Source: Methanoculleus marisnigri JR1 (GTDB taxonomy: Archaea > Halobacteriota > Methanomicrobia > Methanomicrobiales > Methanoculleaceae). From it: a DNA stretch of 64,000 nt. The notes below the pieces were generated by a model that saw only the letters and a list, made by a program, of their open reading frames with translations, did not search any database and had not been told where the DNA came from. Where the stretch lies: contig NC_009051.1 in the NCBI RefSeq assembly GCF_000015825.1, forward strand, positions 1,234,695 through 1,298,694. The letters run 5' to 3'. Positions 14,599-16,643 of this stretch are shown piece after piece. Made by a program: the position numbers and the translations under genes. Positions within the stretch are counted from its first letter, which is position 1. Each line of letters starts with the position of its first letter.

Positions 14599-14620
14599 CG
14601 GGGGTAGATGGCCGTTTCCG

Positions 14621-14628
14621 TATATAAA
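14621..14628 (-). promoter_or_regulatory. TATA box of the glycogen operon (leaderless start)
   Basis: TTTATATA on the minus strand is centred about 26 nt before the ATG at 14598, and no purine-rich ribosome-binding sequence lies between them. This spacing puts transcription initiation at or next to the A of ATG, so the first gene is probably translated from a leaderless message. Confidence 0.6.
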
Positions 14629-14868
14629 TGTCGTCGACGTGGAATACCCGCCGACCCTCAGGCCCCTTCCGTGCTCCGATACCCGGGAAATTGGCAACCG
14701 TCATCCCCGGAGCGGATCGAGGCATCCCGGTGCCTGCGCGGAGAGCAAAACGACGGGATGCTCCGCGTTACCGGCCGTCTTCGCATATCCGGATGGGGCC
14801 GCATCCCGCGATCCTGCCGCAGCGCTCGACCGCCGGCACGACCCCCGTCTTCGAGAGCTTCAATCCCT

Positions 14869-15052
14869 CGAACAAAAAAGGCTTTGTGACTTACTGCACA
14901 TATTAGCACTACAGCGGTGGCGAAGCGGACTAAGGGCGGAATATACAGTTGATGTATTGCTAAAAATCTGTGCTGCCCTCAACTGCGATTTTGCCGACAT
15001 AACGAATGTCGACAGAAGCAAGAATAAATCTAAAGAGGAGGAGGCCGCCATA
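14869..15052 (+). pseudogene. Frameshifted XRE-type regulator remnant
   Basis: Joined across frames, the DNA reads like the core of a small Cro/C1 helix-turn-helix protein: LCDLLHI, then ISTTAVAKRTKG, then EYTVDVLLKICAALNCDFADI. The middle recognition-helix block is in a different frame from both flanks. The shifts fall near 14,902 and at an extra G near 14,938. Such regulators have a start and a first helix that are missing here, so this is a broken copy. The last part runs in frame into the DUF1016 gene without a stop. It is AT-rich like that gene and was probably acquired with it. Confidence 0.55.
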
Positions 15053-16117
15053 GTGAACGGGCGCAATGATAGCATACAACCCACAGTTACGGGCGAGTTG
15101 AATACAAGCATCTATCAAGGCATCCGCAATACCCTTGCGGAAGCACGGTCAAAAGCCTATTCTGCTGTTAATTCCGCTATGGTTGAGGCTTACTGGGAGA
15201 TCGGGCGGCAGATAGATGAAGCCGTTGGTGAACGCGCCGAATATGGAAAAGGTCTGCTGAGATATTTGGCGGGGCAGTTGACTTCAGAGTTTGGTAAAGG
15301 CTTTGATGAAAGCAGTTTACGCCGAATGCGTCAATTTTTCAAGACGTTTCCAATTCGTGCCACACTGTGGCACGAATTGAGTTGGTCTCACTATCGCCTG
15401 CTTATGAAGATCGAAGATCAGTCGCGGCGTGAGTTTTATGGACGTGAATGTGCTGAAGCGGCCTGGAGTGTTCGTCAATTGGAGCGGCAGATAAACTCGT
15501 TCCTTTATGAACGTCTGCTCGCCACACAAAAAAGCGGAGCTGAAAGCGTGAAAAACGAAATTCACACGCTTGAACCGAAAAATGATCCCGATTATATCCT
15601 CAAAGACCCCTATATTTTGGAGTTTTTGGATTTGAAAGAAAATCGTGATTATCACGAAAACGATTTGGAACAGGCTTTAATCAACAAACTGCAAGAGTTT
15701 TTGCTCGAACTTGGAAAGGGCTTTTCATTTGTGGCACGCCAAAAGCGGATAACAATTGAGGGCGACCATTACTATGTCGATCTCGTTTTTTACAACTATA
15801 TCCTTAAATGCTTTGTAGTCATCGATTTAAAGGCAGGAAAGCTGACTTATCAAGATGTCGGCCAAATGGACTTCTATGTCCGATATTTTGAGGATAAGGT
15901 GAAATTGCCGGGTGATAATCCCACCATAGGGATTATTCTCTGCACCGACAAAAACGATACGATGGCAAAATACTCTGTGCTGTCAGATAATGAAAATCTG
16001 TTTGCCTCAAAATATATGCTCTATCTTCCCACAGAGGAAGAATTGAAGCACGAATTAAAACGTGAACGCGAGCTTATTGAGCGTCAGAAGGCCATGGACG
16101 AGGGGGCAGACAAATGA
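15053..16117 (+). CDS. DUF1016 / YhcG-type PDDEXK nuclease family protein
   Basis: This is a 354-aa protein of the DUF1016 (YhcG) family, widespread in bacterial accessory islands. The N-terminal domain (SIYQGIRNTLAEARSKAYSAVNSAMVEAYWEIGRQIDEA ... LRRMRQFFKTFP ... LSWSHYRLLMKI) is followed by a C-terminal PD-(D/E)xK-like core: KRITIEGDHYYVDLVFYN and CFVVIDLKAGKLTYQDVGQMDFYV. The D..D.K residues fit a nuclease fold, but the cellular target is unknown. GTG at 15053 follows GGAGGAGG at good spacing and is the family start, although the frame is open further upstream into the broken regulator. Codon use is clearly AT-rich (AAA, TTT, GAA) against the GC-rich neighbours, a sign of transfer. Confidence 0.85.
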   Translation: MNGRNDSIQPTVTGELNTSIYQGIRNTLAEARSKAYSAVNSAMVEAYWEIGRQIDEAVGERAEYGKGLLRYLAGQLTSEFGKGFDESSLRRMRQFFKTFPIRATLWHELSWSHYRLLMKIEDQSRREFYGRECAEAAWSVRQLERQINSFLYERLLATQKSGAESVKNEIHTLEPKNDPDYILKDPYILEFLDLKENRDYHENDLEQALINKLQEFLLELGKGFSFVARQKRITIEGDHYYVDLVFYNYILKCFVVIDLKAGKLTYQDVGQMDFYVRYFEDKVKLPGDNPTIGIILCTDKNDTMAKYSVLSDNENLFASKYMLYLPTEEELKHELKRERELIERQKAMDEGADK

Positions 16118-16643
16118 GTGCCCTTACAAAGCATTCACGCATTATGGAGATACTGGAGCGAGAAACGGGAGGACACAGCTACAAATCTCACAAATACAGC
16201 CTTGACGATTCAGAGCGCTCCCCTGTCGAATATGGGGAATCAGGGAAGTCGACGCAGTGGACACGGCGTGGGGAAACAAAGGATATTAGAACAACTACGA
16301 TTATATGATTGGTGTATCAAAGAGATTCAATCCTGAAATGTGTCTCATGTTAGGTGATAAACCGAATCCCGGATTTATCGCCAAGTTGCCATTATATCAT
16401 CGGACTCCAGTGGCGTACTTTACAGATCCCGAAAGATGATTCAACTGTTAACGATGTCCTCCAATATTACTGCATAAAGCGGTATAACGAAATACCTGAG
16501 TTAGTCGCTGAAGATTGAGCTTGTTTAATCTCACCGACTTTATGAGAAAAAATAATTTGGTCTCTGACTTTATGAACGAAGTCGCCCGGACCGCAACATT
16601 CTAAAGAGACCTCTCCCGATCACCCTCCCGGGAGTGTGGCCGC
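16118..16643. other. AT-rich tail of the acquired patch, no firm gene
   Basis: This 526-base stretch keeps the low GC of the DUF1016 gene. An ATG at 16114 overlaps the nuclease stop and opens 64 codons that resemble nothing I know. A second short frame, GTG 16354 to TGA 16518 (54 codons, with a segment CHYIIGLQWRTLQIPKDD), is also unrecognised. A pair of direct repeats, GACTTTATGA, lies at about 16,532 and 16,566. Decayed remains of transferred DNA are more likely than functional genes. Confidence 0.35.

Follow-up and report, generated by a model that had tools for sequence, protein, structure and literature searches.

Among described systems, ParB and Noc with their sites parS and NBS are the nearest in mechanism to the arrangement reported here. 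The parS site is 16 bp long and nearly constant in sequence, and one parS site lies inside the spo0J gene. According to the available text of PMC7383237, base 1 of the parS half-site is read by ParB residue 173 and base 6 by residue 201, and Arg204 also contacts parS. The nuclease analysed in the present study shares with these proteins a match to the HTH_ParB profile, probably the fold and, by profile alignment, equivalents of specificity residue 201 and contact residue 204, and the site found in its gene family is two-fold symmetric and appears to be read near 3 and 7–8 bp from the dyad. However, it carries a nuclease instead of the CTP-binding ParB domain, and its site, unlike parS, diversifies among relatives. 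For the C-terminal domain, the best Foldseek rows were EndoMS and a Pyrococcus repair endonuclease, which we take to be NucS; to our knowledge, EndoMS/NucS has no ParB-like domain. By both of its domains, the protein is a member of the DUF1016/YhcG family (PF17761 plus PF06250; PDC-S02 in PADLOC), for which the open-licence literature searched, including the available text of PMC11341870, yielded neither an embedded coevolving site nor an established function. Palindromes inside coding sequences are also known from Rickettsia palindromic elements, which insert into many kinds of sequence (PMC4316617, available text), and from PARCELs, which are tandem 25-residue repeats (PMC2996958, available text); the DUF1016 palindrome, by comparison, stays at one place in one family and was not found across many unrelated genes. 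Both the family and the ParB fold have been described before, but no nuclease family with a coevolving address inside its own genes appeared in the open-licence papers searched.

The whole stretch of 64,000 nucleotides analysed, hereafter the window, is part of the 2.48 Mb, single-contig genome of Methanoculleus marisnigri JR1. The preliminary description had noted a sharp drop from GC-rich to AT-rich DNA at approximately 14,870–16,600 and had taken this patch to be acquired. The GC fraction of positions 14870–16600 was 0.443 compared with 0.629 for the remaining window, and 0 of 312 sliding segments of patch length were as GC-poor, confirming the drop. Nucleotide similarity to the bacterial relative L034 ran from ~14,870 to 16,177, with the low GC content continuing to ~16,600. 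Related loci (184) were obtained from a pattern-based scan of species genomes, and among the best 80 that were kept the closest relatives of the nuclease were those of Lutispora, Anaerobacterium and a Peptococcaceae bacterium, 87–89% identical. Within the genus, the palindrome pattern described below was present in two of 35 genomes, and patch DNA in two of the 30 loci fetched on the right flank, namely in the window genome and in a sister species (G019); 20 of the 30 had both flanking genes and no patch, with a gap of ~200–520 bases in ten and ~1.0–1.1 kb in the other ten. The sister-species patch was ~95% identical, and its nuclease is broken because window positions 15,411–16,419 are deleted there. 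The close bacterial relatives and the scarcity of the patch in the genus bear out its acquisition, and these comparisons identify positions 14,870–16,600 as a bacterial import nearest to clostridial proteins. The gap between the GH57 and Orn/Lys/Arg decarboxylase genes (window positions 14606–14869) varies across the genus, and at one locus (L380:413-1444) it contains an ORF of 343 aa, which looks GNAT-like by its motif. The start of this ORF (MSVSVYKCRR) resembles that of a window ORF at 14608 (MAVSVYKCRR), suggesting that the patch may sit in the remnant of such a gene.

At the left end of the patch, a degraded XRE (HTH_26) gene occupies positions 14875–15046 of the forward strand (ends approximate), with its 5′-end missing, its frame broken and the stop codon before the nuclease lost. 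In three bacterial relatives (L033, L034 and L037), an intact HTH_26-like gene stands on its own at this position; compared with these, the window copy has been deprived of its 5′ part, including the start codon, and contains small indels. The remnant had been described as readable with two frame corrections, and both of the peptides quoted in support are there in different frames, but the damage revealed by the three intact bacterial XRE-DUF1016 loci is larger than two corrections. It does run in frame into the nuclease gene (ORF 14639–16117), as had been stated, because it has lost the stop codon that comes between regulator and nuclease in L033 and L034. The locus alignment with bacterial relatives and the conservation of the nuclease likewise upheld the earlier picture of a dead regulator beside an intact nuclease. 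The remnants in two further relatives (L035 and L045) were broken too, showing that the XRE loss in the window is not special, and no gene of this type was seen in the ORF listings of L036 and L038. These alignments indicate that the XRE gene has been lost repeatedly and that the nuclease is kept in its absence.

The nuclease gene (354 aa; 15053–16117, forward strand) is intact. Its GTG start at 15053 is the one used by relatives, and alignment with these relatives supported a Shine–Dalgarno-like AGGAGGAGG at 15036–15044 on the same strand. Since both are kept, the fused frame is not the normal N-terminus of the nuclease, a possibility that the preliminary description had raised against its own reading. 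DUF1016_N (E 7e-45) and YhcG_C (E 1e-59) were both matched over the Pfam cut-offs. The YhcG_C domain (15596–16057, forward strand) is a predicted PD-(D/E)XK nuclease domain; the best Foldseek rows for the whole-protein model (pLDDT 76) were the Pyrococcus repair endonuclease and EndoMS, and the C-terminal domain gave E values of 4e-4 and 4e-3 for its two best rows (EndoMS and the Pyrococcus enzyme). The acidic and lysine residues of this domain were invariant across 42 aligned proteins. Against four bacterial relatives, dN/dS was 0.05–0.06 with dS near or at saturation (0.98–2.58), and against the sister-species remnant it was 0.29 over 119 codons, one partner being a broken gene. The suggested link with defence holds as a match to the profile of the PADLOC defence candidate PDC-S02 (E 4e-144). 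Plasmid records with a match numbered 458. On conjugative plasmids (L357:1-1305 and L359:1-1305), the last 4 bases of a site-specific integrase gene are shared with a DUF1016 gene. The same genome has, outside the window, a second, distant DUF1016 gene (G000:C1:1201147-1202205; a frame of 390 aa) that is 44% identical to the window nuclease over the C-terminal part, as well as a weaker fragment at C1:161576-161764.

The first reading of the sequence had overlooked that the nuclease gene holds its own candidate control or target site. When the genome was searched with the patch, a second, reverse-strand match surfaced within the query itself, corresponding to a perfect 29-bp palindrome, CAATTCGTGCCACACTGTGGCACGAATTG, at 15,351–15,379 (14 of 14 pairs). 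It lies inside codons 100–109 and is a candidate binding site of the encoded protein. The 19-bp core of the palindrome had no second copy in the window genome, even with up to 3 mismatches allowed.

In related genes from several phyla, a palindrome sat at the equivalent codons, its arms differing between genes and covarying with each other. To count such genes without bias, we took those that protein or profile searches had identified in the family (40 genomes), in the species collection and in 665 genomes sampled from the phyla of four relatives, with at most 30 loci fetched per search and pattern-fetched loci left out; 209 of 222 ORF stretches were distinct. A stem score of at least 12 was reached by 60 of the 209 genes and by none of 627 codon-shuffled copies, and a score of at least 9 by 129 genes and 14 shuffled copies. 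The Trp motif was present in 104 of these 129 genes, with the palindrome centre exactly 12 bases before the Trp in 85 of the 104. We then fixed the register by this conserved Trp (183 genes with the Trp out of 192 aligned). At least 10 of the 14 pairs were formed in 137 of the 183 genes, at least 12 in 91 and all 14 in 23, compared with 2.4% (at least 10) and 0.08% (at least 12) under a synonymous-codon null using each gene's own codon use. Swapping arms among genes gave 16.7% with at least 10 pairs, and none of ten shifted registers gave at least 12. With one gene per 50%-identity cluster, at least 10 pairs were retained in 22 of 34. The remaining 46 of the 183 genes had fewer than 10 pairs at the fixed register; by eye, several contained a displaced, even-centred or repeated palindrome, and in others none was visible. 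A further 44 ORF hits from viral, plasmid and phage records, which include fragments, near duplicates and one contig found by pattern, contained 21 with a score of at least 10.

We also looked for flanking operators. Another copy of the 17-bp core (up to 2 mismatches) occurred in the DNA retrieved around only two of 93 genes with at least 11 pairs, one of these copies being in the same gene and the other in an inverted second gene. Control cores gave 1 of 178, and flanking operators were rejected. Ten genomes were checked for paralogues, of which four (G041, G248, G672 and G675) had two genes in the set; the two palindromes differed in all four, which in this small sample fits an avoidance of cross-talk. 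Several genes, mostly of Bacteroidota (L112:2775-2951, L097, L292 and L273), contained more than one palindrome or palindrome-like peptide; the cores resembled each other, which would fit duplication of the site within the gene.

Next, we compared protein residues with palindrome arms in a set of 147 distinct, well-covered genes (effective number ~73), each with 10 or more pairs. Pattern-fetched loci were included here because they cannot bias the pairing between residues and bases. When alignment columns were ranked by their tendency to differ where the arms differ, with overall identity removed, the top four were 87, 91, 85 and 88, all on or just before the helix that follows a GF motif, with column 317 fifth and 90 sixth. 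Mutual information over 2,673 residue-by-base pairs, corrected for column means, placed residue 87 with base 7 first (z 9.6), followed by 112 with 11, 115 with 10, 140 with 11 and 91 with 9. Arg87 occurred with G7 in 66 of 66 genes, and G7 was found in four of the other 81 (two Ser87 and two Glu87 genes); after clustering at 60% identity the figures were 16/16 and 1/19. Similarly, Ser112 went with A11 in 47 of 50 genes (0/97 in the others) and Arg115 with C10 in 88 of 89 (3/58 in the others), the letters of these two pairs having been picked after the mutual-information ranking was seen. Looser pairs were T112/G11 (51/64 against 7/83), G112/C11 (12/12 against 18/135), R91/G8 (16/22 against 24/125), Y91/C8 (41/52 against 25/95) and N91/A9 (32/32 against 88/115). 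A further 48 rows comprised palindromes that were displaced or even-centred, gene fragments, and members of the set listed under another locus identifier, and are therefore only partly independent; in these, Arg accompanied G in 16 of 16 odd and five of five even palindromes, and G was also present in six of 27 odd palindromes lacking Arg.

In the window gene, codons 83–98 (15299–15346, forward strand) encode the GF motif and a helix that aligns with the ParB recognition helix according to models, covariation and profile alignment; within them, the residue 87 codon at 15311–15313 specifies Ser. Codons 112–115 (15386–15397, forward strand) encode Ser-His-Tyr-Arg, which profile alignment places on the Gly-His-Ala-Arg of ParB. 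Arm bases 7, 10 and 11 are positions 15358, 15361 and 15362, so that Ser87 is found with T7, Ser112 with A11 and Arg115 with C10. A relative 88% identical to the window protein (L035) has Arg87 with G7. The codons of residues 87, 112 and 115 are all outside the palindrome.

These associations recurred on trees. On a tree of the C-terminal domain only, R87 changed 31 times, G7 30 times and their joint state 32 times, and greedy pair contrasts (n=31) gave 29 in agreement, none opposed and two uninformative. Each of 44 control columns with 20–45 changes of its own had at least 14 extra joint changes with G7. An N-terminal tree built without residues 80–112 gave 21 contrasts in agreement, none opposed and one uninformative. 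For S112 and A11, the changes numbered 30 and 29 (joint 31), and for R115 and C10 they numbered 10 and 8 (joint 11). These counts suggest that the palindrome address has switched about 30 times in the sample.

The N-terminal domain resembled ParB by several measures of differing strength. Modelled alone it had a pLDDT of 91, and its 18 best Foldseek rows were all ParB, Noc or Spo0J, at a best E value of 0.16 that is not significant. The 14 best VIA rows were ParB, Noc, Spo0J, VirB and SopB (Z 4.7–8.2 over 85–103 residues, where a Z of ~8 can arise for helical domains), and lower rows were other proteins, mostly helical. HTH_ParB matched the window domain at 23.0 bits, above the cut-off of 22.6; over the full fused ORF the score was 20.6 bits, below it. 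The same profile matched 24 of 40 N-terminal domains of members at E 0.01 or better. Sequence searches of the PDB gave nothing better than E 0.07, and an N-terminal CTP-binding ParB domain had no Pfam match at E 0.001 in the ORF, so that the protein does not qualify as a canonical ParB. Profile alignment (hhalign) with four ParB proteins from the sampled genomes (E 1.4e-4, probability 53%) matched residues 112 and 115 to the Gly and the Arg, respectively, of the ParB GHAR motif; residue 87 fell immediately behind the KSR-like beginning of the recognition helix. In the numbering used in the available text of PMC7383237, residues 112, 115 and 87 would correspond to ParB 201, 204 and 174. By this alignment, the three residues are parS-reading ParB positions or are next to one. 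In a 16-bp parS, bases 6 and 1 are the third and eighth pairs from the dyad. The pairs tracked in the DUF1016 palindrome are the third, by residue 112, and the seventh, by residue 87.

The family position is also occupied in E. coli, where K-12 yhcG (L362:7828-8955) has three palindromes in tandem. Among 5,426 E. coli genomes, the K-12 gene had a match in 4,417, with at least 80% of the gene covered in 3,310; two other DUF1016 genes used as queries matched nothing in E. coli, and a third matched two plasmids only. In 12 records, picked by eye among 60 listed and then read, yhcG alleles (L363–L374) varied in palindrome number and arms. Two of them, L366 and L374, were 96.95% identical, and five of their 34 differences were inside one palindrome; those at positions 344 and 360 of the gene form a compensatory pair, and a change at 354 breaks a pair. 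Palindromes 2 and 3 were absent out of frame in two of the 12 alleles and in frame in one, and another allele diverged at the 3′ edge of palindrome 3. IS genes adjoined partial yhcG copies in three records.

Taken together, our results argue that the protein recognizes a site in its own gene, a reading to which we give a probability of roughly 0.86. On this reading, the gene encodes a PD-(D/E)XK nuclease joined to a ParB/Noc-like DNA-binding domain, and the palindromic site that this domain would recognize is embedded in the coding sequence itself, flanked on one side by the recognition-helix codons and on the other by those of a second specificity helix. The N-terminal domain, presumably in a dimer, very probably reads this palindrome in the manner of ParB; physical binding is what we infer from the sequence comparisons. 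A point against own-gene recognition is that recombination of the whole block could move the helix, the palindrome and residues 112–115 together.

What such recognition would be used for is a more tentative matter. Autoregulation, with the bound palindrome acting as an intragenic operator, is to us the simplest and likeliest use, although we would put it at slightly under an even chance, with nuclease targeting or self-cleavage next. Such control would continue to operate in a new host after transfer and might replace the lost XRE gene; it would explain how the imported nuclease survived the loss of its XRE partner. However, repression from an operator that lies some 300 bp into the coding sequence would be unusual.

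Alternatively, and more boldly, self-recognition may be real but serve the nuclease rather than repression of transcription: the enzyme would cut further copies of its gene that arrive on incoming DNA, or the gene itself. DUF1016 genes would then be self-addressed, with an address of 19–29 bp that is a target on other copies in trans, as in exclusion, incompatibility or homing-like conversion. We regard both the cutting and this trans form of it as rather unlikely, even though the invariant acidic and lysine residues of the nuclease domain, the ~30 changes of base 7, the PDC-S02 match and the 458 plasmid records all favour targeting. The E. coli records lacking palindromes 2 and 3 (three of 12) or diverging at the edge of palindrome 3 (one) would also suit targeting, but such breaks may be ordinary IS or deletion events, given the adjoining IS genes. 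Moreover, an enzyme able to cut its own gene would require some form of protection, and none was seen here.

The remaining explanations do without recognition by the encoded domain. If the palindrome were an RNA hairpin or a DNA cruciform, only pairing would matter and the arms would drift, as is consistent with arms that differ widely while pairing is kept and with the placement of the YhcG nuclease near Holliday junction resolvases in the available text of PMC1189080. Over all 14 pairs, G·T mismatches are slightly more frequent than A·C (48 compared with 36), in line with a hairpin, but the bias is reversed at inner pairs 2–11 (11 compared with 22); codon position confounds both counts. More importantly, the arm bases follow residues 87, 112 and 115. 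The Holliday-junction-resolvase account was dropped as a main reading because residues outside the palindrome track the arms, and we consider a hairpin or cruciform improbable. Template switching (quasipalindrome correction) could match the arms without selection, and covariation of the arms alone would follow from it; the two E. coli alleles with five changes inside one palindrome could be taken the same way. Such a bias, however, predicts neither a link to residues encoded outside the palindrome nor a fixed place in one gene family across the four phyla sampled, making it very improbable as an explanation.

A mobile coding palindrome akin to the Rickettsia elements is suggested by the several copies in some genes, such as the three in K-12 yhcG and those in L112. 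Against this, the pattern CAATT-N7-CASTG-N7-AATTG occurred at 13 places in 31 genomes chosen for their DUF1016 genes, all 13 in DUF1016 genes (one of them, L212, a broken copy), and the reversed control at none. Of 91 stretches matching the same pattern in IMG/VR, exactly six had perfectly paired arms, and all six were in DUF1016 genes, with six different arms; one near-perfect case was elsewhere. The latter, on a viral contig (L194:7241-7269), has one arm mismatch and lies outside any DUF1016 gene. On these counts a mobile element is highly implausible. Finally, a need for the octapeptide itself, its codons pairing by chance, would fit the fixed frame at the common register and the recurring hydrophobic positions, but is scarcely credible when 2.4% of synonymous-codon copies pair as well as 137 of 183 genes do and when the peptide varies as widely as ATLWHE, HTLCAE, ALRSE, QQAVGQ and QTLSAQ.

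For DUF1016/YhcG, a widespread uncharacterised nuclease family that includes an E. coli K-12 gene, recognition of the own gene would predict a DNA target for most sampled members, with a recognition code of three positions that is testable at once. As the address and its reader lie within ~100 bp, they move together and can switch together, and a protein and its DNA site within one gene appear to have switched specificity together ~30 times in the sample. This provides a natural experiment on the evolution of DNA-binding specificity and, if true, self-addressing would give many mutually blind specificities.
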